Shown here: piece by piece, positions 18,265 to 43,675 of the stretch
How the letters are laid out: every line of letters begins with the position of its first letter
Numbering within the stretch: the stretch's first letter is position 1
Source of the DNA: Flavobacteriaceae bacterium
GTDB lineage: Bacteria; Bacteroidota; Bacteroidia; Flavobacteriales; Flavobacteriaceae
NCBI GenBank assembly: GCA_024638225.1
Contig: JAHEKR010000002.1
Location: forward strand, 1-64,000
Direction of reading: 5' to 3'
DNA length: 64,000 nt
Translations under genes and position numbers: made by a program
The notes under the pieces: model-generated
Databases searched by the model: none
Told to the model about the DNA's origin: nothing
The model's input: the letters and a program-made list of their open reading frames with translations, nothing else

Positions 18265-19938
18265 TTATTCGTCAGTTACGCAACCGTCAGATGCCGAAGC
18301 AACTGCGCGTGCGTATTTGTACAATACTCCTTTTTTTACCTTAAGTGCTGGGGCAGTCCAAACAGCACGACGCTGATTTAGGATTTGATCACTCAGCCTC
18401 ACACTCAATTCATTTTTTTCGGCATCTATGCATATAATATCTCCGTTTTCGATTAAGGCTAGTGCTCCTCCGATTTGTGCTTCTGGGGTTATGTGGCCCA
18501 CAACAAAACCGTGTGTTCCACCCGAAAAACGACCATCGGTAATAAGTGCAACATCCTTACCCAAACCTGCGCCCATGATGGCGGCAGTTGGTTTTAACAT
18601 TTCAGGCATACCGGGACCGCCCTTTGGACCCTCGTAGCGAATGACGACCACTTCACCCTTTTTGACTTCACCAGCTTTAATACCTGCATTTGCAGCAAAC
18701 TCCCCGTCGTAAACACGTGCAGGACCTTCAAAATATAAACCTTCTTTCCCTGTGATTTTAGCTACAGAACCTGCTGAAGCCAAATTGCCAAATAAAATAC
18801 GAATATGCCCTGTCTCCTTGATGGGATTGTCTGTTGGACGAATTACTTTTTGTCCGGAGGAAAGGGAAGGGACATTGGCCATATTTTCGGCAAGTGTTTT
18901 TCCTGTAACGGTCATGCAATCTGCATGAAGCATATTGGCATCAAGCATAAACTTAATCACCGCAGGAATACCACCAACACGATGCACATCCTCCATTAAA
19001 AATTTTCCACTAGGTTTAAGATCAGCTAGGAAAGGAGTTGTATCGCTGATACGCTGGAAATCATCCAATGTGAAGTCAACCTCTGCTGCCTTGGCTATTG
19101 CCAAAAAGTGCAACACTGCATTGGTAGATCCACCCAAAACAGTAACCAGTCGAATGGCATTTTCAAGAGACTTTTTCGTTACAATATCCTTGGGTTTAAT
19201 GTCTTTTTCAATCAACAAGCGCATGGCTTTTCCTGCCGCGACGCAACCGTCTATTTTTTCTTGGCTTACCGCTGGGTTTGAAGCATTATACGGAAGCGCA
19301 AGTCCCAATACCTCGATGGCAGATGCCATGGTATTGGCAGTGTACATACCACCACAGGCGCCTGCCCCTGGGCAAGCATTTTGGATCACTTCTTTGTATT
19401 TAGCTTCGTTGATGGAGCCAGCTACTTTTTCACCCCAAGCTTCAAAAGCCGAGACAACATCTAATTTTTTGTCAGCCACACAGCCAGAAGCTATTGTTCC
19501 TCCGTAGACCATTATGCTAGGCCTATTAAGTCGAAGCATTGCCATTACAGAACCGGGCATATTTTTGTCACACCCCACTACGGCTACCATGCCATCGTAA
19601 GACATTCCACCCATAACCGTTTCCATAGAGTCCGCAATCAAATCGCGAGAAGGAAGCGAAAAACGCATCCCTGGGGTACCCATAGAAATACCATCACTAA
19701 CACCGATAGTGTTGAAAACTAATCCGACTAAATCAACTGCTGCAGTACCCTTCTTGATGTGCTGCGCCAAATCGTTCAAGTGCATGTTGCACGGGTTACC
19801 TTCGTATCCGGTACTTGCTATCCCAACGAGTGGCTTCTTGAAGTCATCGTCCGTTAAACCTATGGCATGAAGCATAGCTTGTGCTGCAGGTTGGCTAGGG
19901 TCTTGTGTAACAACTTTGGAATATCGATTGTGTGCCAT
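18265..19938 (-). CDS. ilvD: Dihydroxy-acid dehydratase
   Basis: [61 protein letters not shown]. Confidence 0.97.
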
Positions 19939-25272: not shown

Positions 25273-26555
25273 ACAAGTTGAATTTGGAGCGTAGATGTAT
25301 TGGCTACGGCCTCAAATTTACGATTTATTCGTTTGCCAACTACCCAAACAATATCGTTTCCCGAACACAGCAGCCATTGTTGTTTTTTGTCCAGCGCAGA
25401 CATTTTTTCGTCTTTGAAAAATTTAGCCACTTTTTTCTTGCCTGTCATGCCCGATGGATAAAACACATCGCCACTTCTCCAACGTCGCAAAATCAAAGGG
25501 AAATCCAATTTTTTCTTGTCTATCAACGCGTACTTAGACGTGGGCTTGGATGCGACAACATCCGCTGAAATCTTTAGTTTGATGGGGGTTTCTAAGCCTT
25601 CCTCAGGAACCAAGAAATAGTCTTGCTCAGTTGCTGCAGTTACAGCAGTGGGTGTCAAAATCAGGTGAAGGCGTTCTCGCGTTAAAATATATTTTTCGCC
25701 TGTACATTTTTTTCCCGCATGGGTGTTCAGCAGTTTTTCAACTTCTTTGACATCAAAGCCATAAGGCGCAAACAAATGATGCAGCCAAAAGCTTTTTGGA
25801 TGCAATGCATCAATAGATGAGAAAGGAATTTTCAAGGCTTCTCCTTGTTGCTTCCAATGTGATGTAATGTTTTGCAGTTGCGACTGTATGCCTTCATAGG
25901 CATCACGCAAATGTTGCATACTGGACAGTGTATTGGCAGCTGCATCAGTTGACAACTCCATAAAAGACGGCAATACCTTATGTCGAATGGCATTGCGTAA
26001 ATATTGGGTAGAACTGTTGGAAAAATCCTCGCGCCATTGGAGCTTTTGTTCCTTGGCAAAAGCCAAAATTTCATCTTTTCGAAAGGGCAATAACGGACGC
26101 ACCAAAGCGCCCTTTTTATCATGTATTCCTCCCAAACCTTCAAGGCCACTTGCTCTAGTTAGGCGCATGAATAAGGTTTCCAATTGATCGTCTGCATGGT
26201 GTGCTGTCAAGATAATATCGTAGGTATTTCTTTCAAGCACTTCCATAAACCAACTGTAGCGTAGGTCTCGTGCTTTTTCTTGAATACCCGATGCAGCGGG
26301 GTCTATGGGTGATTGTGTTACATGACAAGGTACATCTAGGGAAGCTGCCAAGTCACGAACCAACTGCTCATCGGCATCACTATCTGCTCCACGTAACCCA
26401 TAATTCACGTGTGCAATACCAAAATCAATTTGTACTGTATGTAACAAATGTGCCAACACCACACTGTCCACACCCCCGCTAACTCCTAGCAAAAAGCGAT
26501 GTTTTTTTGGTGTGCCCAAAAGGGAAACAATATGGTCGCTAAACCTTTGTACCAT
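25269..26555 (-). CDS. tilS: tRNA(Ile)-lysidine synthetase
   Basis: PP-loop FLLGVSGGVDSVVLAHLLHT; LTAHHADDQLETLFMRLTRASGLEGLGGI. Start reassigned to MVQRFSDHIV; the upstream ORF extension overlaps pabB. Confidence 0.94.
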   Translation of the reverse strand: MVQRFSDHIVSLLGTPKKHRFLLGVSGGVDSVVLAHLLHTVQIDFGIAHVNYGLRGADSDADEQLVRDLAASLDVPCHVTQSPIDPAASGIQEKARDLRYSWFMEVLERNTYDIILTAHHADDQLETLFMRLTRASGLEGLGGIHDKKGALVRPLLPFRKDEILAFAKEQKLQWREDFSNSSTQYLRNAIRHKVLPSFMELSTDAAANTLSSMQHLRDAYEGIQSQLQNITSHWKQQGEALKIPFSSIDALHPKSFWLHHLFAPYGFDVKEVEKLLNTHAGKKCTGEKYILTRERLHLILTPTAVTAATEQDYFLVPEEGLETPIKLKISADVVASKPTSKYALIDKKKLDFPLILRRWRSGDVFYPSGMTGKKKVAKFFKDEKMSALDKKQQWLLCSGNDIVWVVGKRINRKFEAVANTSTLQIQLV

Positions 26556-27864
26556 GGATATTGGGAATTGTTTTTTTATTTGCCAAAACACGCTTAATGG
26601 CTTTGACCTTAAGCTGACATTCGTCGTATTCTTTAGATGGATCGGCAGCTGCGGTGAGTGCACTCCCCACATGCGTGGACAGGTATTTTGAAGACGCATC
26701 ATAAACCAAACTGCGGATAACCACATTAAAATCAAAATCGCCATTGGGTGCAAAATACCCCACTGCCCCACTGTACAACCCTCGTTGTCCGTGTTCATAT
26801 TGATTGATAAGTTCCATGGCACGTTGCTTGGGTGCGCCTGTCATGCTGCCCATAGGAAAACAAGCATTGACAACGTCCAAAGAAGTAAAGGCGGGGTCAC
26901 ACTGAGCCTTAACGGTTGAAATCATTTGATGCACCTGTGCAAATGGATAAACGGCACATTGCTCGCTAACTACAACAGAGCCTTTTTTGGCAATCCTAGA
27001 AAGGTCGTTGCGTACTAGGTCTGTTATCATGATATTTTCAGCGCGTTCTTTGGCATCAAGCTTTAGCGCCTCGGCTACCGATTTGTCCATAACGGCATCC
27101 TCATGTCTTGCGGCAGTTCCTTTGATGGGTTGGGACATAAGGGCTTCGCCTCTGCGTTGTAAAAACCTTTCGGGCGAGGCAGACATCAAATACGTATTGT
27201 CAAAAGAAAGAAAGGCAGAAAAGGGTGTTTTGCCGATGCGATTTAATGCATTGAACAAGGTCATGGGCGAAACATCAACTTCATCGGCATACCATTCCAT
27301 GCAGTAGTTTACTTCATATATATCACCACGCATGATATGCTGCTTGAGTGCGCTTGCGTGTTGTAAATAGATATCCTTGCTGATGCGCGGCGACAAATCA
27401 ATAGCCGTTAAAGATGCTTCAGTTCTTGTTATGTTGTTTGTGATGCGTTCAAAGTCAACGGCAGGATTATCCGATTCTAAATATAGGGCCGTGAGTAAAT
27501 CGCCTTTGAGCAGCCATAGTTTTTTGGGTTTAAAGAATTGAAGTTGTGGCACAGACAAAAAAGAGGGGTTGGTGGGCGCTACTTGCTCCCAAGCTGTATT
27601 GTATTCGTAACTAAAAAAACCAAAGAGCCAGTCGGTTCCCAATTCGGTTTGTAACTCCTTTTCGGATGTATGCCATTGGTTTTCTTCAAATGTTTCAAGA
27701 GCAAGAATGGCGTCAAAATCGTTGTTTTGATGGGGGTAATCATTGGAATCGTACCACGCAATAGGCGAAGAATCACCAGCCCAATCCAAGAGCTGTGCCT
27801 TGATATCGGGATAGTTTGATACATTATAGACTGCTTTTGAGCGTGTTACCAACTTTTGCTTCAC
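26539..27864 (-). CDS. pabB: Aminodeoxychorismate synthase component I / anthranilate synthase component I family protein
   Basis: GDIYEVNYCMEW; SASPERFLQRRGEALMSQPIKGTAAR; MITDLVRNDLSRIAKKGSV; FPMGSMTGAPKQRAMELI. Confidence 0.88.
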   Translation of the reverse strand: MKQKLVTRSKAVYNVSNYPDIKAQLLDWAGDSSPIAWYDSNDYPHQNNDFDAILALETFEENQWHTSEKELQTELGTDWLFGFFSYEYNTAWEQVAPTNPSFLSVPQLQFFKPKKLWLLKGDLLTALYLESDNPAVDFERITNNITRTEASLTAIDLSPRISKDIYLQHASALKQHIMRGDIYEVNYCMEWYADEVDVSPMTLFNALNRIGKTPFSAFLSFDNTYLMSASPERFLQRRGEALMSQPIKGTAARHEDAVMDKSVAEALKLDAKERAENIMITDLVRNDLSRIAKKGSVVVSEQCAVYPFAQVHQMISTVKAQCDPAFTSLDVVNACFPMGSMTGAPKQRAMELINQYEHGQRGLYSGAVGYFAPNGDFDFNVVIRSLVYDASSKYLSTHVGSALTAAADPSKEYDECQLKVKAIKRVLANKKTIPNIHGTKV

Positions 27865-27921: not shown

Positions 27922-27929
27922 TATATTTG
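27922..27929 (+). promoter_or_regulatory. Candidate -7 box (TATATTTG) of the arginine operon
   Basis: Exact match to TAnnTTTG, followed by GC; no clear -33 TTG seen at the expected spacing. Confidence 0.4.
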
Positions 27930-27933
27930 CATT

Positions 27934-27996
27934 GTGATTGTAAATAACGTTTCACGTAATTCTTTTTCCCCGCGCGCTCGTCGCCCCTTGGGGTAA
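27934..27996 (+). CDS. Putative Arg-rich leader peptide (V/M)IVNNVSRNSFSPRARRPLG*
   Basis: Read by hand: GTG ATT GTA AAT AAC GTT TCA CGT AAT TCT TTT TCC CCG CGC GCT CGT CGC CCC TTG GGG TAA. Four Arg codons in 20, between the -7 box and the arginine biosynthetic operon. Confidence 0.5.
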   Translation: MIVNNVSRNSFSPRARRPLG

Positions 27997-28048
27997 TTCA
28001 CTGTATATGAAACTTAGGTGTGTCCGGTTTCCCCCTCAATTTTTTTTC
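27990..28048 (+). terminator. Candidate attenuator/terminator hairpin upstream of the arginine operon
   Basis: Nested pairing GGGG (27990-27993)/CCCC (28032-28035) and GAAAC (28009-28013)/GTTTC (28027-28031), followed by TCAATTTTTTTT. Competing stem GTTTCA (27949-27954)/TGAAAC (28008-28013). Confidence 0.4.
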
Positions 28049-28077
28049 AATCATTTTTTTCTTTTCAATCCAGTAGC

Positions 28078-28668
28078 ATGGAAATTCAAGTAGCCAAACG
28101 CATACACGTCAAGTATGCAACCATCATTTCGGAAACCATATCCAGTTCAGCACAAGTGCGTGGAACAGGAATTGCACGTCGCACTCCAGAGTATATTCAA
28201 CAAAAAATCGAATCCGGTAATGCCATTATTGCGCTAGACGGAGAAACTTTTGCGGGTTTCTGCTATATAGAGGCATGGGGACACGAAAAATACGTTGCCC
28301 ATTCAGGATTAATTGTTGATCCTAACTACAGAGGCATTGGTCTTGCGAAAAAAATCAAAACGCAAATTTTTAATTACACTAAAGAAAAGTATCCGGGAGC
28401 CAAGATATTTGGAATTACCACAGGACTTCCGGTAATGAAAATCAATTATGACTTGGGCTACAAGCCTGTAACCTTTTCTGAACTAACAGACGACCCTGCC
28501 TTCTGGAAGGGATGTCAAACCTGTAAAAATTACGATGTACTCACACGAACCAAGCAAACCATGTGTTTGTGTACTGGAATGTTGTACGATCCTGCTTCAA
28601 AAAACAACAACGGTTTTGTTGGTAGGTTACAGTCATTTAAAAAAGCATTTAAACGAGATAAAAAATGA
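28078..28668 (+). CDS. GNAT family acyltransferase, candidate first enzyme (ArgA-like N-acylglutamate synthase) of the arginine operon
   Basis: MEIQVAKRIHVKYATIISETISSSAQVRGTGIARRTPEYIQQKI; HSGLIVDPNYRGIGLAKKIK acyl-CoA loop; first gene of the cluster. Confidence 0.8.
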   Translation: MEIQVAKRIHVKYATIISETISSSAQVRGTGIARRTPEYIQQKIESGNAIIALDGETFAGFCYIEAWGHEKYVAHSGLIVDPNYRGIGLAKKIKTQIFNYTKEKYPGAKIFGITTGLPVMKINYDLGYKPVTFSELTDDPAFWKGCQTCKNYDVLTRTKQTMCLCTGMLYDPASKNNNGFVGRLQSFKKAFKRDKK

Positions 28669-29846
28669 ACAAAAAATTAGTTTTAGCATACAGCGGAGGT
28701 TTGGATACTTCCTATTGCGTCAAGTCGCTTAGCGAAGCGGGCTACGAAGTACATGCCGTTAGCGTTAACACGGGTGGTTTTGATACAACTGAAGTGTCGG
28801 CACTTGAGTCAAAGGCACTTACTTTAGGTGCCAAATCATACACCAATATAGATGCCGTAGAAACATTCTATGAAGACATCGTCAAATACCTCATATTTGG
28901 CAATGTTCTCAAAAACAACACCTATCCCCTTTCGGTAAGTGCGGAGCGTGTTACGCAAGCTGTTGCGATTGTTGGGCATGCCAACAAATTAGGCGCGCAA
29001 TACATTGCTCACGGCAGTACGGGAGCTGGAAACGACCAAGTCCGCTTTGATTTGATTTTTCAAACATTAGCACCAAAAATTGAGATTATCACTCCTATAC
29101 GAGACAACAAGCTTTCACGTGAAGAAGAAATAGAATATTTGAAATCACATGGTGTTGATTGGTCTTGGGAAAAAGCACAATATTCCATCAATAAAGGCTT
29201 GTGGGGAACATCGGTTGGCGGTAGCGAAACCTTAAAATCTCGCGAACCACTACCCGATAGCGCATACCCTAGCGATTGTACAAAAACGGCATCGGAAAAA
29301 ATTTCCTTGCATTTTGACAAAGGAGAATTGGTCGGAATTAACGATACCACTTACAGCCCAGTTCAAGCCATTCAGCAATTACAAACACTTGCGGGTGCAT
29401 TTGCTATTGGCAGAGACATTCATGTGGGCGATACCATTATTGGCATCAAAGGTAGAGTTGGTTTTGAAGCCGCTGCAGCACTGGCGAGCATCAAGGCGCA
29501 TCAGCTGTTGGAAAAGCATACACTAAGCAAATGGCAATTGCACCACAAAGACTATATCGGCTCGTATTACGGCATGATGTTGCACGAAGGGCAATATCTT
29601 GACCCTGTAATGCGTGATTTTGAGGCCTTACTTAACAGTAGTCAAAAAACGGTAACAGGAACTGTGTTTATTACGCTTCACCCCTATCGATTTACTCTAG
29701 ATGGAATCAAATCTGACTATGATCTAATGGACAATTCGTTTGGGACTTATGGCGAAGCCAATGAAGCCTGGACTGCAGACGAAGCAAAAGGATTTATCAA
29801 ACTATCGGCCAATGCCGGAAAAATTTATCAGCATGTCAATAAATAA
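28665..29846 (+). CDS. argG: Argininosuccinate synthase
   Basis: LVLAYSGGLDTSYCVKSLSEAGYEVHAVSVNTGG; AHGSTGAGNDQVRFDLIF. Confidence 0.96.
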   Translation: MNKKLVLAYSGGLDTSYCVKSLSEAGYEVHAVSVNTGGFDTTEVSALESKALTLGAKSYTNIDAVETFYEDIVKYLIFGNVLKNNTYPLSVSAERVTQAVAIVGHANKLGAQYIAHGSTGAGNDQVRFDLIFQTLAPKIEIITPIRDNKLSREEEIEYLKSHGVDWSWEKAQYSINKGLWGTSVGGSETLKSREPLPDSAYPSDCTKTASEKISLHFDKGELVGINDTTYSPVQAIQQLQTLAGAFAIGRDIHVGDTIIGIKGRVGFEAAAALASIKAHQLLEKHTLSKWQLHHKDYIGSYYGMMLHEGQYLDPVMRDFEALLNSSQKTVTGTVFITLHPYRFTLDGIKSDYDLMDNSFGTYGEANEAWTADEAKGFIKLSANAGKIYQHVNK

Positions 29847-30819
29847 ACTAACTGCAGGCGTTGTTGGAGGAGCCGGATATACTGGAGGAGAACTCTTACG
29901 CTTGCTTGTAGATCATCCTAATGTATCCATAGACTTTGTGTACAGCACCACTCGAGCAGGCAAAGCTGTTTCGGACACACATACCGACTTGATGGGAATT
30001 TTGGACATACCCTTTTCGGCGGAGCTAAACCAAGAGGTAGATGTGTTGTTTCTTTGCCTAGGGCATGGCAATTCAGCTGCTTTTTTACACGACAATGTAG
30101 TAAACGACAACACCAAAATCATTGATTTAAGTAACGACTTTCGACTTAAAGACGACCACGATTTTATGGGACGTTCTTATGTGTATGGGCTAACCGAAGT
30201 AAACAAAGAAAAAATCAAATCAGCACAAGCAATTGCCAACCCAGGCTGCTTTGCTACTGCCATTCAATTGGCGCTACTCCCTTTAGCAGCAGCAAAAAAA
30301 CTAAAGCAAGACGTGCACATAAATGCGATTACAGGAAGTACGGGCGCTGGTGCGGTACCCTCAGCAACAAGTCATTTTAGCTGGCGAAACAACAATATAT
30401 CTTATTACAAGCCTTTTGTACATCAACATCTAGGAGAAATCGGCGAAACCATCGTACAAGAACAAGGCAGCAATGCCAAGTTGCATTTTTTACCCATAAG
30501 AGGAAATTTCACCAGAGGGATATTTGCTACAACCTATACCTCATATGACGGAAGCTTGGAAGATGCCTATGCCATTTTTGAGGATTACTACAAAGACTGC
30601 CCGTTTACGTTTGTTAGCCGTGCACCATTGGCACTCAAACAAGTGGTCAACACGAACAGGTGTTTGGTACACCTACATTTGCACGAGGGTCAGCTTTTGG
30701 TGACCAGTATTATTGATAATTTAGTGAAAGGAGCATCGGGTCAGGCAGTAGAAAACATGAACTTGATGTTCGGAATTGAACAAACAACAGGATTACATTT
30801 AAAATCAACTTCTTTTTAA
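29833..30819 (+). CDS. argC: N-acetyl(acyl)-gamma-glutamyl-phosphate reductase
   Basis: AGVVGGAGYTGGELLRLLVDHPNV; AIANPGCFATAIQLALLPL; ITGSTGAGAVPSATSHF. Start MSINKLTAGVVGG at 29833. Confidence 0.96.
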   Translation: MSINKLTAGVVGGAGYTGGELLRLLVDHPNVSIDFVYSTTRAGKAVSDTHTDLMGILDIPFSAELNQEVDVLFLCLGHGNSAAFLHDNVVNDNTKIIDLSNDFRLKDDHDFMGRSYVYGLTEVNKEKIKSAQAIANPGCFATAIQLALLPLAAAKKLKQDVHINAITGSTGAGAVPSATSHFSWRNNNISYYKPFVHQHLGEIGETIVQEQGSNAKLHFLPIRGNFTRGIFATTYTSYDGSLEDAYAIFEDYYKDCPFTFVSRAPLALKQVVNTNRCLVHLHLHEGQLLVTSIIDNLVKGASGQAVENMNLMFGIEQTTGLHLKSTSF

Positions 30820-30821
30820 TT

Positions 30822-31616
30822 ATGAAAATAGCCATACTAGGAGCCGGAAATTTAGGACTAAGCATTGGACGTGGACTAATCACCAACAACAACCTTACAC
30901 AGTTATATCTTACAAGACGTAATGTAGAGAGTATTAATTCTTGGACGGAGTATGCCAACACTTACGTCACGGCAGACAATAAAAAAGCTGTACAAGAGTC
31001 TGACATCATCATACTTGCTGTACAACCCAGACAACTCGGCGGGCTGCTCGAAGAAATAAAAGGTTTACTTCACGACAACCACGTATTAATTTCAACGGTC
31101 ACTGGTTTTTCGATTAAAAAGATGGAAGAAGTAGTAGGTCAGGAGGTATTTATTATCCGTTCCATGCCCAATACTGCCATATCTGTTGGTAAATCGATGA
31201 CTTGTCTTTGTGCCAACAAAAAGGGTGCAGAACGCATGCCCATAGCCGAAGCTATTTTTAATGGACTCGGAACAAGTATTGTAATCGAAGAACAGCACAT
31301 GCGTGCAGCAACGGTGATTTGTGCGTCAGGAATTGCCTTTTGGATGCGCTTAATTCGCGCTACAACACAAGGAGGCGTACAGCTTGGTTTTGACGCTGAA
31401 GAAGCCATGAAAATGTCGATGTACACTGCTATGGGCGCAGCTTCTTTGCTTATTGAAACAGGTGCGCACCCAGAAGAAGAAATCGATAAAGTAACCACAC
31501 CCAGAGGATGCACCATTGAGGGGCTAAACGAAATGGAGCACCAAGGACTAAGTTCATCGCTTATCCAAGGTATCGTAGCCTCATTTAAGAAAATTAACGA
31601 AATAGCACAAGACTAA
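30822..31616 (+). CDS. proC: Pyrroline-5-carboxylate reductase
   Basis: MKIAILGAGNLGLSIGRGL; VFIIRSMPNTAISVGKSMT; TTPRGCTIEGLNEMEHQGLSSSLIQGI. Confidence 0.94.
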   Translation: MKIAILGAGNLGLSIGRGLITNNNLTQLYLTRRNVESINSWTEYANTYVTADNKKAVQESDIIILAVQPRQLGGLLEEIKGLLHDNHVLISTVTGFSIKKMEEVVGQEVFIIRSMPNTAISVGKSMTCLCANKKGAERMPIAEAIFNGLGTSIVIEEQHMRAATVICASGIAFWMRLIRATTQGGVQLGFDAEEAMKMSMYTAMGAASLLIETGAHPEEEIDKVTTPRGCTIEGLNEMEHQGLSSSLIQGIVASFKKINEIAQD

Positions 31617-31618
31617 TT

Positions 31619-32743
31619 ATGCCATTATTTGATGTATATCCACTTTATGACGTAACACCCGTTAAAGCCAAAGGGGTATATGTCTATGGCGCAGACCGAA
31701 AGAAGTATCTTGACTTATACGGTGGTCATGCGGTAATCAGTATAGGACACCAAAACTCGGTGTACAACCGACGACTTAAGAAGCAAATTTCGCGCATTGG
31801 CTTTTACTCCAATGCCATTCAGAACCCATTGCAAACCCAACTGGCAGATGAAATTGAAGCACAGTCAGGGTGTGAGGGCTATCAACTGTTTATGTGTAGC
31901 TCGGGAGCTGAAGCCAATGAAAACGCACTTAAGCTCGCCTCGTTTCATACAGGTAAGTCAAAAATAGTCGCTTTTAAAAATGCCTTTCACGGCAGAACAA
32001 GTGCAGCAGTTGCCGCCACAGATACGCCTAAAATTATTGCACCACTCAATGCGCAGCAGGAGGTTATATTCCTTGAATTTGGCGATGAAAAAGGGCTAGC
32101 AGAAATTTTGTCAAAAGGAGATGTATGTGCCGTTATCATCGAAGCCATTCAAGGGGTTGGTGGTTTGGATATGCCCACTGAAAAATTCATGAAACAGGTG
32201 GAAAAAAGCTGTCGTGAGACCGATACCTGTCTTATTGCAGACGAGGTGCAATCTGGTTTTGGACGTTCGGGCAAATTCTTTGCCTTTCAACACTATGGCA
32301 TTACACCAGATATAATTTCCATGGCCAAAGGCATGGGGAACGGATTTCCTGTAGGTGGCATTTTGGCACATCCCGACATCAAGCCTTGGTATGGGATGCT
32401 GGGAACAACATTTGGCGGAAACCACTTGGCCTGTCAGGCAAGTCTGGCGGTTTTGGAAGTATTAAAGAAAAAGAAGTTAATGGAGCACGCCACCCAACTG
32501 GGCGAAGCCTTTTTCGATAGAGCTAAACGTATTCCCGATATAAAAAAGGTAAAAGGTCGTGGACTGATGCTAGGATTGGAATTTGACTTTGAAGTAGGTG
32601 AACTACGCAAAAAACTCATTTACGAACACCGCATATTTACCGGAGGGAGCAGCAACAAAAAGTTATTGCGGATTTTACCTCCACTCACCGTGCAGCAAAA
32701 ACACCTTGACCAGTTTTTCACTGCATTAGAAAATGTATTATGA
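31619..32743 (+). CDS. argD: Acetylornithine-type aminotransferase (class III)
   Basis: LDLYGGHAVISIGHQN; FKNAFHGRTSAAVAATDTPK; DEVQSGFGRSGKFFAFQHYGITPDIISMAKGMGNGFPVGGIL. Confidence 0.93.
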   Translation: MPLFDVYPLYDVTPVKAKGVYVYGADRKKYLDLYGGHAVISIGHQNSVYNRRLKKQISRIGFYSNAIQNPLQTQLADEIEAQSGCEGYQLFMCSSGAEANENALKLASFHTGKSKIVAFKNAFHGRTSAAVAATDTPKIIAPLNAQQEVIFLEFGDEKGLAEILSKGDVCAVIIEAIQGVGGLDMPTEKFMKQVEKSCRETDTCLIADEVQSGFGRSGKFFAFQHYGITPDIISMAKGMGNGFPVGGILAHPDIKPWYGMLGTTFGGNHLACQASLAVLEVLKKKKLMEHATQLGEAFFDRAKRIPDIKKVKGRGLMLGLEFDFEVGELRKKLIYEHRIFTGGSSNKKLLRILPPLTVQQKHLDQFFTALENVL

Positions 32744-33681
32744 AACAATTTTTAACGCTTAATGACCTTCAAAATTTTGATGCGCAAGTAGCTCTTGCCA
32801 AAGAAATCAAAGCAAATCCATATCAATACGAGAAACTAGGCAAACGCAAAACCCTCGGGCTGTTGTTCTTTAACCCTAGCTTACGAACACGATTGAGTAC
32901 TCAAAAAGCAGGTCGTTTGTTGGGCATGGATGTAATGGTGATGAATTTCAGTAACGAGGCTTGGGCCATTGAATACGAAGACGAAACCATCATGGAAGGC
33001 TTGCGCTCAGAGCATGTTAAAGAAGCTGCACAGGTGGTTTCACAATATTGCGATGTGGTGGGCATCCGTGCCTTTGCCACGCTGACGGACAAAGAAAAAG
33101 ATGAGTCCGAGCAGGTGTTGCAGCGATTTATTGAACATGCTACGGTACCCATTTTAAATATGGAAAGTGCAACTGCCCATCCTTTACAGGCCTTAGCCGA
33201 TGCGCTTACACTATCCGAGCTTGAGCTCCCCAAAAAACCAAAGGTAGTGTTGACATGGGCACCGCATCCAAAATCATTACCGCACGCAGTAGGCAATTCA
33301 TTTACTAGAATGATGGAATACCTAGATGCGGATTTCGTTATCACTAATCCGGTAGGTTATGACTTGGATCCACGTATCACTAAGGATATTCCTGTAGTTC
33401 ACAACCAAGACGAAGCACTCAAAGGTGCCGACGTGGTTTATGCCAAGAATTGGAGTTCCTATGGTTCCTATGGACAGATTCTACGAACAGACAACGAGTG
33501 GATGTTAACCCCAGAAAAATTAGCTTTGACCAATCAAGCAGCTTTTATGCACTGCTTACCCATCCGAAGAAATGTGGTGGTATCTGATGGTGTATTGGAC
33601 GGTCCAAACTCCAAAGTAATTGAGCAAGCCAACAACAGAACCTATGCCGCTGCTGCGGTATTAAAAACATTACTGTCGTGA
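32740..33681 (+). CDS. N-acetyl- or N-succinyl-L-ornithine transcarbamylase (ArgF' type)
   Basis: FFNPSLRTRLSTQKAGRLLGMDVMVMN; W75; AHPLQALADALTL; FMHCLPIRRNVVVSDGVLDGPNSKVIEQANNR. Confidence 0.9.
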   Translation: MKQFLTLNDLQNFDAQVALAKEIKANPYQYEKLGKRKTLGLLFFNPSLRTRLSTQKAGRLLGMDVMVMNFSNEAWAIEYEDETIMEGLRSEHVKEAAQVVSQYCDVVGIRAFATLTDKEKDESEQVLQRFIEHATVPILNMESATAHPLQALADALTLSELELPKKPKVVLTWAPHPKSLPHAVGNSFTRMMEYLDADFVITNPVGYDLDPRITKDIPVVHNQDEALKGADVVYAKNWSSYGSYGQILRTDNEWMLTPEKLALTNQAAFMHCLPIRRNVVVSDGVLDGPNSKVIEQANNRTYAAAAVLKTLLS

Positions 33682-34454
33682 AACCAAAGCTACATATCCT
33701 AAAAGTTGGGGGCCATTTGGTCAACGATGCTGCAGCGCTGCAAGAAGTACTTGCTGCCTTTGCTGGCTTAGCGGGAGCCAAACTCTTGGTGCACGGCGGT
33801 GGCAGACATGCGACAGCACTTGCAAAGCAATTGGGTATATCACCCAAAATGGTAAACGGCAGACGCATAACAGATACTTCCATGCTTGATGTAGCCGTGA
33901 TGAGCTATGCCGGTTTATCGAACAAAAAAATTGTGGCTGAACTTCAAAAATTAGAGGTAAATGCTGTCGGCCTTAGCGGAGCAGACGGGAATTGCATACA
34001 AGCAATCAAAAGACCTGTTACAGATATTGACTACGGATTTGCTGGAGATATTACACAAGTAAATACGGAGGTATTTGCCGCATTGACATCACAAGATTTT
34101 GTTCCGGTACTTTGTGCCATCACGCACGATAAAAATGGGCAATTACTCAATACAAACGCGGATACCATAGCTGCGCAAGTAGCCATAGCCATGCAGGTGG
34201 AATATGACGTATCGCTCTTCTATTGTTTCGAGCATGCGGGCGTACTTAAAGACACCAATAAGCCTGAGGACGTTATTGCTGAATTGTCCAAAGAAACAAC
34301 CGAAACCTATATTGCGACAGGAGTCATTCATCAGGGAATGGTACCCAAATTGCACAACGGCTTTGACGCACTCCAAAATGGCGTTAAAGAAGTAATCATC
34401 AGCAATGTTGCAGCACTTTCAGAAATAAATGCACCGAAAACTACATTGATATGA
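33678..34454 (+). CDS. argB: Acetylglutamate kinase
   Basis: LHILKVGGHLVND; KLLVHGGGRHATALAKQLGISPKMVNGRRITD; GLSGADGNCIQA; LLNTNADTIAAQVA. Confidence 0.95.
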   Translation: MKPKLHILKVGGHLVNDAAALQEVLAAFAGLAGAKLLVHGGGRHATALAKQLGISPKMVNGRRITDTSMLDVAVMSYAGLSNKKIVAELQKLEVNAVGLSGADGNCIQAIKRPVTDIDYGFAGDITQVNTEVFAALTSQDFVPVLCAITHDKNGQLLNTNADTIAAQVAIAMQVEYDVSLFYCFEHAGVLKDTNKPEDVIAELSKETTETYIATGVIHQGMVPKLHNGFDALQNGVKEVIISNVAALSEINAPKTTLI

Positions 34455-35512
34455 GTCGAATCGAAGAACTGCAACAAGAGGCAATTCAATTGCTTCAAGA
34501 CCTCATCAACACCCCTTCGCTTTCGAGTGAGGAAGACCAAACGGCTGCCATCATTAAGCAGTGGTTAGAAAAACACGGGGTTGTTTGTCAACAAGAGAAC
34601 AACAATGTGTACGCCATAAACAAACACGAAGATCCTACCAAACCTTATTTGCTACTTAACTCACACCACGACACCGTGCATCCCAATAGTGGGTACACCA
34701 AAGACCCATACAAAGCTGAAATCAGTGACGGGAAACTCTATGGCTTGGGCAGCAACGATGCCGGGGGTGCCCTTGTATGTTTGTTGACAACCTTTGTGTA
34801 TTTCTACGAGCAAAAAGACATGGCATATAACCTTGTTGTGGCTGCCACAGCAGAGGAGGAAACTTCTGGGCCAAACGGACTAAACAGTTTGTTGCCTATC
34901 CTTCCGCCTATTGATACCGCAATCGTGGGCGAACCCACGCAAATGCACTTGGCAGTATCCGAAAAAGGATTGGTGGTATTTGATGTAACAATACATGGAA
35001 CGGCAAGTCATGCGGCACACCCTAACAGCGATAACCCCATTGATAAAATTGGCAGCGTTATCGATTGGTTTAATTCGTATGATTTTGATCGAGTTTCGGA
35101 AACCTTAGGTCCTGTAAAACTTACCGTTACGCAAATTAATGCGGGAAAGCAACACAATGCCGTTCCGGCAGATGTAAAAATGGTATTGGATGTGCGTGTA
35201 AACGACCGCTATACCAATGCTGAAATAAACGAATTGTTACAGGCTGCGCCATGTGAGGTAAAAGCACGTTCGCTGCGGTTAGGCTCATCATCTATTCCGA
35301 TGGAGCATCCCATTGTTAAAGCCGGGGTTGCAACAGGACGCGAAACCTACGGTTCCCCTACCCTTTCGGATCAAGCAGTACTCTCGTGCAATTCGCTAAA
35401 ATTAGGACCTGGCGATTCGCCACGCTCGCATACGGCAGATGAATTTATTTATGTAAAGGAAATTGAAGAGGCAATCCCGTTGTATATTACCATATTAAAA
35501 CAAGCGTTATGA
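34451..35512 (+). CDS. argE: M20 family metallo-hydrolase (acetyl/succinyl-ornithine deacylase)
   Basis: LLLNSHHDTVHPNSGYTKDPYKAEISDGKLYGLGSNDAGGALVCLL; AATAEEETSGPNGL. Confidence 0.88.
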   Translation: MSRIEELQQEAIQLLQDLINTPSLSSEEDQTAAIIKQWLEKHGVVCQQENNNVYAINKHEDPTKPYLLLNSHHDTVHPNSGYTKDPYKAEISDGKLYGLGSNDAGGALVCLLTTFVYFYEQKDMAYNLVVAATAEEETSGPNGLNSLLPILPPIDTAIVGEPTQMHLAVSEKGLVVFDVTIHGTASHAAHPNSDNPIDKIGSVIDWFNSYDFDRVSETLGPVKLTVTQINAGKQHNAVPADVKMVLDVRVNDRYTNAEINELLQAAPCEVKARSLRLGSSSIPMEHPIVKAGVATGRETYGSPTLSDQAVLSCNSLKLGPGDSPRSHTADEFIYVKEIEEAIPLYITILKQAL

Positions 35513-36792
35513 AGCTTTGGCAGAAAAAAAAGACAAGCACATCAGAACAAGTAGATCGATTTACTGTTGGTGCCGATAGACATTGGGATGTTCGGTTGGC
35601 TCCATATGATGTTTTGGCATCAAAAGCACATGCACAGATGCTGGCAAGCGTAGGCTTACTCTCTAAAGAAGAAGGAAAACAGCTTACTGATGAGCTGGAT
35701 AACATCATGTCGCTGGTAACCAAAGAAGATTTTGTAATCGAAAAGGATTTTGAAGATATCCACTCTAAAATTGAATTTTTACTAACCGAGCGTCTTGGTG
35801 ATGCAGGGAAGAAAATTCATACGGCTCGTTCGAGAAACGATCAGGTCCTTACGGCCATGCAACTGTTGCTAAAGGATGAACTGACAGAAATAAAAAACCT
35901 AGCAAAAGACCTATTTGATACGTGGATGCAGCTCGCCGATAAGCATAAAGATGTCTTGCTACCAGGTTATACGCACCTGCAAGTGGCCATGCCCTCCTCC
36001 TTTGGCTTGTGGTTTTCTGCCTATGCAGAATCACTGATAGACGATGTTGTATTGCTAAATGCAGCCCATACCATTTGCGACCAAAATCCATTGGGAAGTG
36101 CAGCAGGCTATGGAAGTTCGTTTGGTATCGATCGTTCCCAGACAACAAAAGCACTTGGGTTTAAAGCGCTTAAGGTAAATGCGGTTGCCGCACAAATGGG
36201 AAGAGGCAAGACAGAGCGCATCACGGCCAATGCACTTGGCTCACTGGCATCCACCCTTGGAAGGTTTTCTATGGACGTATGCCTCTACATGAGCCAGAAC
36301 TTTAATTTTCTCTCGTTTCCAGACCACCTGACTACAGGGTCGAGTATCATGCCGCACAAAAAGAATCCAGATATTTTTGAACTTATAAGAGGAAAATGTG
36401 CTTTGATTCAAGGGTTGGGTAATGATTTTGCACTGCTTGGTCAAAACCTGCCAAGTGGCTATCACCGCGAAATGCAGCTATTTAAAGGTAGAATGCTCGA
36501 GGGCATAGATGAACTTAAAGACTGCCTTACTATCCTAAACAGCACTATCAAACAAGTACAGGTGCGCGACGACATTATGGAAGACAGCATCTACACCTAT
36601 GCCTTTACGGTAGATGCGCTGAATGAGTTGGTACAGCAGGGTGTTCCATTTAGAGATGCGTATAAGCAGGTTGGACAACAGCTTGAAGAAGGAACATTCG
36701 TTCCGCCAAAAAAACTGTCCCACACGCACATGGGAAGTCTTGGAAATTTGGCTTTGGATAACATTCAGGACAAGTTCAACCAATACTTCTAA
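35509..36792 (+). CDS. argH: Argininosuccinate lyase
   Basis: FTVGADRHWDVRLAPYDVLASKAHAQML; IHTARSRNDQVLTAMQLL; TGSSIMPHKKNPDIFELIRG. Confidence 0.96.
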   Translation: MKLWQKKKTSTSEQVDRFTVGADRHWDVRLAPYDVLASKAHAQMLASVGLLSKEEGKQLTDELDNIMSLVTKEDFVIEKDFEDIHSKIEFLLTERLGDAGKKIHTARSRNDQVLTAMQLLLKDELTEIKNLAKDLFDTWMQLADKHKDVLLPGYTHLQVAMPSSFGLWFSAYAESLIDDVVLLNAAHTICDQNPLGSAAGYGSSFGIDRSQTTKALGFKALKVNAVAAQMGRGKTERITANALGSLASTLGRFSMDVCLYMSQNFNFLSFPDHLTTGSSIMPHKKNPDIFELIRGKCALIQGLGNDFALLGQNLPSGYHREMQLFKGRMLEGIDELKDCLTILNSTIKQVQVRDDIMEDSIYTYAFTVDALNELVQQGVPFRDAYKQVGQQLEEGTFVPPKKLSHTHMGSLGNLALDNIQDKFNQYF

Positions 36793-41551: not shown

Positions 41552-43675
41552 ATGAGCGAAAGTAAATGCCCCTTCCACGGAGCAACAACCCAACCCAACC
41601 TTGGAACACAAAACAAAGATTGGTGGCCAAATCATTTAAACTTAGATATCCTAAGACAACACGACGCCAAAAGTAACCCCATACAAGAAATTAACTATCG
41701 TGAAAACGTTAAGAACCTTGACCTTGAAGCGGTAAAGGAAGATATTGTTCAGGTGATGCGTGACAGTAAAGACTGGTGGCCTGCGGATTATGGTCATTAT
41801 GGTCCCTTTTTTATTCGTATGACATGGCACGTAGCTGGAACTTACCGCACTGGTGATGGACGAGGAGGTGCAGCTACTGGCGCTCAACGCTTTGCACCAC
41901 TGAATTCATGGCCTGATAACGGAAACCTTGACAAAGCACGTCGCTTACTTTGGCCTGTTAAGGAAAAGTACGGAAACGACCTTAGCTGGGCGGACCTACT
42001 CGTTCTTGCAGGGAATGTAGCCATTGAAGACATGGGCGGACCTAACCACGGTACCGCTTTGGGAAGAGAAGATATTTGGCATCCAGAAAAAGATATTTAT
42101 TGGGGAGCAGAAGACGAATGGCTTGGCGACAACCGTTACGGAAAAACACGTCAAGATTTAGAAAATCCCTTGGCGGCTGTTCAGATGGGCCTTATTTACG
42201 TAAACCCTGAAGGACCCAATGGAAACCCAGATCCTGCATTGTCAGCACAAGACGTACGCGAAACATTTAAGCGCATGGCAATGAACGATGCGGAAACTGT
42301 AGCGCTAACCGCTGGAGGGCATACATTTGGCAAAGCCCATGGAGCAGGAGATGATGGTCTGGTTGGTGTTGAACCTGAAGGAGCTTCCATTGAAGAGCAA
42401 GGTTTTGGTTGGATGAGTACTTTTAAATCTGGTAAAGGAGTAGATGCCATAACTAGTGGTATTGAGGGGCCTTGGACGACCAACCCAACACAATGGGATA
42501 TGGGTTATTTCGATCTGCTGTTCAAGTATGAGTGGGAATGTAAGAAAAGTCCTGCTGGGGCTTTTCAATGGCATCCTGTAAATTGTGCTGAAGAAGACAT
42601 GGTTCCACAAGTAGATGGAAGTGACCATAAAGTGCTTCCGATGATGACCACGGCGGATATCTCGCTAAAAGTTGATCCTGCGTACAGAAAAATCTGTGAA
42701 CGCTTTATCGAAAACCCGGATGAGTTTGGCGAAACCTTTGCGCGAGCCTGGTTTAAGTTACTTCACCGTGATATGGGACCAAAAAGCAACTATGTAGCAG
42801 GGGACTTTAAAGATGTTGACTACATTTGGCAAGATCCTGTACCAGCGGGAAAAACACTTTCTGCGGCAGATGAAGAAAAAGTAAGAGCTGCGCTTGAATC
42901 CAGTAGGCTTACTCATCAACAAATGGTAGAAACTGCTTGGGCATCTGCATCAACCTTCCGTGGGTCAGACAATCGTGGAGGTGCCAATGGGGCGCGAATC
43001 CGACTTAAACCGCAAAAAAATTGGGCGGTTAACAAACCTGGCCAGCTTTCAGCAGTACTAGCCGTTTATGAGGATATAGCAGCCAACACGGGTGCTAGTG
43101 TTGCAGATGTTATCATTCTTGGTGGTGCTGTGGGTATTGAGCAAGCAAGTGGTGCCCAAGTAACTGTTTCGACAGGGCGTGGCGATGCTACTCAAGAAGA
43201 TACAGATGTTGATTCATTCAACTTACTCAAGCCTAGAGCATGTGGATTTAGAAATTACAGCGAAAAAGAATTTGCCGTATCGCCTGAAGAAATCATGCTT
43301 GACAAAGCCCAGCTTCTTGGAATTACCCCTACCGAAATGACCGTTTTGGTTGGAGGCATGCGCGCGATGGGCATTTCGTCTAATGATGATGGCGTTTGGA
43401 CAGATGGGAAGTTAGATAATAGTTGGTTTAAAACGCTTTTATCTATGGATGTTAAATGGCAGACTGCTGCTTACAACTCCTATGTTGGTCATGACAGGAC
43501 TACTGGAAAAGAAGTGCGTACAGCATCACGAACAGATTTGGTTTTTGGGTCGAATTCTGAGCTACGTGCTATTGTCGAAGTCTATGCGCAAAACGACAAT
43601 AACGACAAGTTTGTACATGACTTCATAGCTGCTTGGAATAAGGTTATGGATGCAGATCGATTCGATCTAAAATAA
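41552..43675 (+). CDS. katG: Catalase-peroxidase
   Basis: [71 protein letters not shown] (Trp-Tyr-Met triad residues present). Confidence 0.97.

Follow-up and report, generated by a model that had tools for sequence, protein, structure and literature searches.

The arginine biosynthesis operon of a Flavobacteriaceae bacterium is preceded by a short open reading frame (ORF) that ends in clustered arginine codons and is accompanied by two conserved hairpins, H1 and H2. The element probably serves the arg operon as an arginine-sensing leader, acting through ribosome-mediated attenuation but lacking an intrinsic terminator. Comparison across related genomes establishes its anatomy (the leader ORF with its Arg codons, both hairpins and their position) and shows that ArgR is absent and that no intrinsic terminator is conserved. 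The sensor part of the leader is well supported, the output stage less so.

The leader ORF and its arginine codons

The window, the whole 64,000-nucleotide stretch analysed here, is part of a 93-kb contig in an assembly of 1.48 Mb that is ~80% complete. The leader and the operon behind it comprise the following features:

27922–27929, + strand: -7 promoter box TATATTTG of the TAnnTTTG type, recognised from the sequence
27934–27996, + strand: leader ORF MIVNNVSRNSFSPRARRPLG, stop codon TAA at 27994–27996, read from the sequence and with an Arg-rich C-terminus kept in relatives
27973–27984, + strand: putative sensing codons CGC GCT CGT CGC (R-A-R-R), from Arg enrichment in the last eight codons
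27983–27994, + strand: hairpin H1, CCC 27984–27986 paired with GGG 27991–27993, loop CUUG, plus the pair G27983-U27994, from alignment
28009–28031, + strand: hairpin H2, GAAACU/GGUUUC, bulge UA, GG-UGUGU-CC, loop 28019–28023, from covariation
28032–28077, + strand: unstructured spacer ahead of the first gene, low in G and containing C (~4% G, 26% C), a candidate Rho-loading tract
28078–28668, + strand: first operon gene, encoding a GNAT acetyltransferase, with the ATG at 28078 as its most likely start
28665–36792, + strand: argG-argC-proC-argD-argF' (N-acetylornithine carbamoyltransferase)-argB-M20 deacylase-argH

The leader ORF has 20 codons from the GTG at 27934, and its Arg codons start at 27955, 27973, 27979 and 27982. 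On re-reading the sequence, the coordinates that the initial annotation gave are exact, including those of the segments from which it built its stems (GTTTCA 27949–27954, TGAAAC 28008–28013, GAAAC 28009–28013, GTTTC 28027–28031, GGGG 27990–27993 and CCCC 28032–28035). Its R-A-R-R cluster is also present, except that three of the four Arg codons fall within four codons rather than the five it claimed. The operon order from GNAT and argG to argH stands as well, with the qualification that the product called argE matches M20 or ArgE-DapE-type models only below their cut-offs. The intergenic region that holds the leader is shared with a divergent pabB-type gene (aminodeoxychorismate synthase component I; 26539–27864, minus strand). 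Elsewhere in the window, a large ORF at 41552–43675 appears by eye to be catalase-peroxidase-like (KatG-like).

Relatives were collected with the first gene as bait (GNAT, likely start 28078), giving 80 loci from named genomes and further whole-genome loci, and homologous leaders were found upstream of the argG operon across Flavobacteriaceae. Of 101 distinct upstream regions, nearly all have a TAnnTTTG-type box and, directly 3' of it, a short ORF ending in clustered Arg codons. The arrangement first proposed for the window, an Arg-codon leader directly behind a Bacteroidota promoter and ahead of the arg operon, is thus conserved far beyond it. Bacteroidota promoters and translation initiation differ from those of model bacteria. 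Among 72 dereplicated relatives, 65 have a -7-like box ahead of the leader, 39 of them in the strict TAnnTTTG form, and the box is separated from the start codon mostly by 4–9 nt. Given this short distance, transcription probably begins at the start codon of the leader or immediately ahead of it, which would make the mRNA leaderless or close to it.

The leader peptides end in R-R-R-P-stop in most genera, in A-R-R-P-L-G-stop in the clade of the window and in R-R-P-F-G-G-I-stop in a third group. Across 72 dereplicated leaders, Arg accounts for 43% of the eight final codons, compared with 5% (0.053) elsewhere in the leader and 6% expected from composition. The codon preceding a CGC-CC anchor encodes Arg in all 72, as CGT in 57 and CGC in 15, and the second codon before the anchor is Arg in 82%. 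Change confined to the wobble position, with the amino acid kept, indicates selection on coding for arginine and not on RNA structure alone. The feature expected of a his/trp-type attenuator on the sensing side, a leader ORF with codons for the regulatory amino acid upstream of the matching operon, is therefore present.

The R-R-R-P-stop that ends most family leaders could also suit a nascent arrest peptide that senses free arginine and stalls at Arg-Pro-stop, like the fungal arginine attenuator peptide. This reading is very improbable, since the C-termini vary (RRP-stop, RRPLG, RRPFGGI, RR-stop, RV-stop and RI-stop), the rest of the peptide is unconserved, and clustered Arg codons are kept rather than a peptide motif.

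Hairpins H1 and H2 and the terminator question

Folding of the window sequence alone, suggested by the initial annotation as a check, was no better than shuffles (z -0.30) and is uninformative, and a terminator scan of the window found none on the strand of the leader. The window by itself would leave the element unproven; we regard it as real because the Arg leader is conserved and H2 carries compensatory changes. Both hairpins were derived from an alignment of 75 sequences. H1 wraps the end of the ORF and in most relatives reads GCCC-GUAA-GGGU, with the stop codon within the loop. Its three C-G pairs are present in 75/75 aligned sequences, so covariation is uninformative on H1; the hairpin is kept while its loop sequence and the position of the stop vary. 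H2 has changes on both sides in 6/8 pairs, with 62 such cells, and none of 500 shuffles scored as high; every slid control was far lower. In Flavobacteriaceae, the top of H2 has the form bulge-GG-UGNGU-CC. The GAAAC/GTTTC hairpin proposed earlier at 28009–28031 is thus borne out as H2.

Several further roles for the hairpins were considered and set aside. Pairing of the Arg codons or H1 with the H2 loop as a pseudoknot reached a permutation P of ~0.05 across 30 lineages, a value driven by a few cases such as L194 and L250, so that the pairing was not accepted as general. Conserved support was found neither for the H2 loop AGGUGN as a Shine-Dalgarno mimic nor for H1 as an RNA polymerase pause signal. 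H2 is not a general module of amino-acid leaders: AGGTGNGTCC occurs six times in the genome, and only the arg site lies in a leader. As a separate observation, the H2 loops of L194 and L250 have 7–10 nt of perfect complementarity to the H1 region, a possible kissing interaction in single lineages.

The initial annotation had proposed that the level of Arg-charged tRNA sets a choice between terminator and antiterminator. Such a classic intrinsic attenuator, with an antiterminator competing against a terminator hairpin and its U-tract, would share its layout with the his and trp leaders of the family, and the window does have a U8 run 8 nt 3' of H2. The intrinsic pair nevertheless finds no support in stems, complementarity or U-run. 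Firstly, the alternative stem GTTTCA/TGAAAC, unlike the covarying H2, is lost in close relatives (L005, L007, L008 and L010) that keep H2. For the G-run that had been proposed to nest H2 against a downstream CCCC, the partner in 75/75 sequences is the neighbouring CCC of H1, and the CCCC is not conserved. Secondly, the H2 arms are complementary to the leader to no greater degree than to shuffled leaders, and no mutually exclusive antiterminator pairing of the his/trp type was found. Finally, the U-run is not conserved: only 7/72 relatives have an 8-nt stretch behind H2 with at least five T, and no U-run was found at the corresponding place in 20 class H2 tails.

Leaders for histidine and tryptophan served as positive controls, and the same script found strong terminators with U-runs in 6/8 his and 7/8 trp leaders, at -13 to -19 kcal/mol. 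The his leader of the same genome (L221, G000:C31, upstream of hisG) encodes MKKTHFFHHNNIAFQTC, followed by the terminator AACCCGTTTG...CAAACGGGTTTTTTG, and is conserved in the genus; the Bacteroid-trp leaders of the family carry the strong intrinsic terminator GGCUUGUC/GACAAGCC-U(n). No intrinsic terminator with a GC hairpin and U-tract was found before the first gene of the arg operon in the window. The script flags 17/72 arg leaders, most among those listed at H1 and with a loose T-rich stretch, at -6 to -10 kcal/mol, far weaker than the his and trp terminators of the family. A few genera do have a U-run behind H2, as in two Cellulophaga leaders (L053 and L056) that the script also reports, at H2 followed almost directly by U5–6; the element may therefore have a terminator role in some genera. 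For the family as a whole, a classic intrinsic attenuator is quite improbable. Elsewhere in the window, the region upstream of an ilvD-type gene (18883–19836, minus strand) differs from his, trp and arg in that neither a leader peptide nor a terminator is recognisable there, and no recognisable leader was found for ilvD in the genus of the window.

Rho, ArgR and the proposed mechanism

The spacers between H2 and GNAT are G-poor on average in the relatives, with 6.8% G and 20.6% C in 72 of them; the control, 22 upstream regions from the window and so from one genome, has 15.8% G and 17% C. Rho is present, and the G-poor spacer together with Rho is compatible with Rho loading, for which G depletion is indirect evidence. 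This combination of Rho with a C-containing, G-poor, unstructured tract, as in systems of the speF, topAI and mgtL type, is necessary for Rho-dependent control and not sufficient for it. ArgR was not found in any of 121 Flavobacteriaceae genomes, with 8/14 control genomes positive and the window's own assembly ~80% complete. The lack of an ArgR-like gene, noted initially for the window, thereby extends to the family, and an ArgR-controlled operon finds no support in these genomes. Control by ArgR would resemble the leader in making the same genes dependent on arginine, but it acts through protein and DNA. With ArgR absent from the searched family genomes, the leader would fill a real regulatory gap.

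In the proposed mechanism, the transcript would start beside the leader start codon, so that a ribosome would load immediately. When Arg-tRNA is scarce, the ribosome would stall on the C-terminal Arg codons; when it is plentiful, the ribosome would reach the stop and leave. With the usual footprint, a stalled ribosome would cover the 5' arm of H1, whereas a ribosome at the stop would cover H1 and end just before H2, and H1 would close only with the ribosome departed or absent. Ribosome position would in this way set the state of H1, H2 and the G-poor tract. Completed translation of the leader would lead to premature, probably Rho-dependent, termination in the G-poor tract, and stalling would allow read-through into GNAT-argG...argH. 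Stalling, the regulatory direction and the parts played by H2 and Rho are our inference; termination on completion and expression on stalling are assigned because of pathway logic and the speF precedent. By analogy with that system, the output is tentatively taken to be non-intrinsic, Rho-dependent termination in the G-poor, C-containing tract. The alignments contain no conserved structure linking ribosome position to this tract.

In the speF leader of Salmonella, low arginine is sensed through two Arg codons of orf34, a hairpin 3' of the stop plays a part, and the output is produced by Rho termination and RNase G (PMC6386406). The arg leader resembles orf34 in its consecutive Arg codons, in a hairpin behind the ORF and, as proposed here, in Rho-dependent termination. 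It differs in that speF encodes ornithine decarboxylase, the orf34 leader is long with a conserved DUF2618 peptide, and the arginine effect there runs via RNase G (PMC6386406). The two show no evident relationship, and speF offers a partial precedent by analogy.

An arrest-peptide, mRNA-stability or reinitiation output would be expected to have the same anatomy. Of these, control of mRNA decay or processing was considered further: a stalled or terminating ribosome, parked near the 5' end or acting through the conformation of H1 and H2, would protect or expose a nuclease site. The nearly leaderless start would suit such control, as would an H2 that is strongly conserved yet without terminator features, and the arginine effect at speF is read out by RNase G (PMC6386406). 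No cleavage signal was identified, and nuclease rules in Bacteroidota are little known; we judge this output unlikely and prefer ribosome-mediated attenuation with termination in the spacer.

Distribution, known relatives and significance

A covariance model built from the leader region (R1) matches 184/301 Flavobacteriaceae genomes and 150/237 genera, with essentially one site per genome; the query GNAT was found in 199/301 genomes. In a sample of the phylum, strong R1 matches are confined to Flavobacteriaceae. Distant homologues were not recovered by R1, as the checked matches below 25 bits sit inside or antisense to coding regions. Two strong R1 sites (L289 and L290) belong to genomes without the query GNAT (G154 and G085) and precede a different GNAT-like gene followed by argG. 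The first gene of the operon has been swapped in these genomes while the leader stayed, which indicates that the leader goes with the arg operon and not with the query GNAT. In one genus (g129; L171, L173, L197–L199 and L201), GNAT is present, but the sampled genomes give no strong match to R1. A different conserved short ORF, MNKxSLHITSLSRTxxPxTSPEVRML, lies there ~240 nt before GNAT with hairpins behind it, and is possibly a diverged arginine leader.

Many other Bacteroidia families have short ORFs upstream of the same operon that again end in Arg codons, with sequences otherwise different. These leaders often have one hairpin at the stop and another following it. Of 36 lineages in these families, 16 show a five-base loop in their best downstream hairpin, and 12 of the 16 loops read UNNGY (binomial ~1e-15, a value that overstates the strength of the motif because the lineages are non-independent and it was first noticed on part of the same data). 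A pentaloop kept class-wide on an otherwise divergent stem, together with a bulge and GG/CC closing pairs that Flavobacteriaceae retain, raises the alternative that H2 is a binding site for some further protein or RNA, with the leader ORF only setting access. This alternative is rather unlikely: there is no candidate protein, and the conservation of the Arg codons would go unexplained unless binding were combined with sensing. A broader proposal, which we put forward as a tentative possibility, is that Bacteroidia have a class-wide, ribosome-sensed Arg leader in the place of ArgR, whose terminator-independent readout uses a UNNGY-pentaloop hairpin recognised by an undescribed factor or process.

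Among known systems, the his, trp, leu and ilv attenuators are like the arg leader in that a short ORF directly upstream of the operon carries several codons in a row for the pathway amino acid and has hairpins behind it. They differ in that the arg leader lacks a conserved U-tract terminator or antiterminator stem, that its H1 closes around the ORF end and that its start is near-leaderless. The Bacteroid-trp leader (RF01692) also encodes a leader peptide in the same bacterial family, in 43/61 family genomes; it has Trp codons, another structure and a strong intrinsic terminator. The arg leader gives no RF01692 covariance-model match, so the combination of match and Trp codons is absent, and no Rfam family scores above its gathering threshold in it (T-box 9.5 bits, against 93 on the opposite strand). 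T-box, riboswitch and Bacteroid-trp identities were set aside for want of an Rfam match.

In Flavobacterium psychrophilum, a member of the same family as the organism of the window, strong clues to leader-peptide attenuation have been described upstream of amino-acid biosynthesis operons, and the main text names no arginine leader among them (PMC9723704). Leader candidates in B. thetaiotaomicron are mentioned in general terms (PMC7366714). A literature search, with supplements and subscription papers outside its reach, found no Bacteroidota arginine leader.

The arg leader is best filed as a variant of ribosome-mediated attenuation that lies outside the intrinsic-terminator class and is not in Rfam. 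Because the his and trp leaders use intrinsic terminators and the arg leader does not, the three offer a clean comparison for an alternative output of attenuation among Bacteroidota. The leader is a testable cis-element in 150 of the 237 sampled Flavobacteriaceae genera and new to Rfam, and the H2 pentaloop hairpin provides a concrete handle for finding the missing factor. More broadly, for a very large bacterial group in which the family-wide search found no ArgR, the leader suggests a possible way of regulating arginine synthesis. With that repressor missing, the ribosome probably measures arginine supply at a leader conserved across a large bacterial class, without the usual terminator switch.
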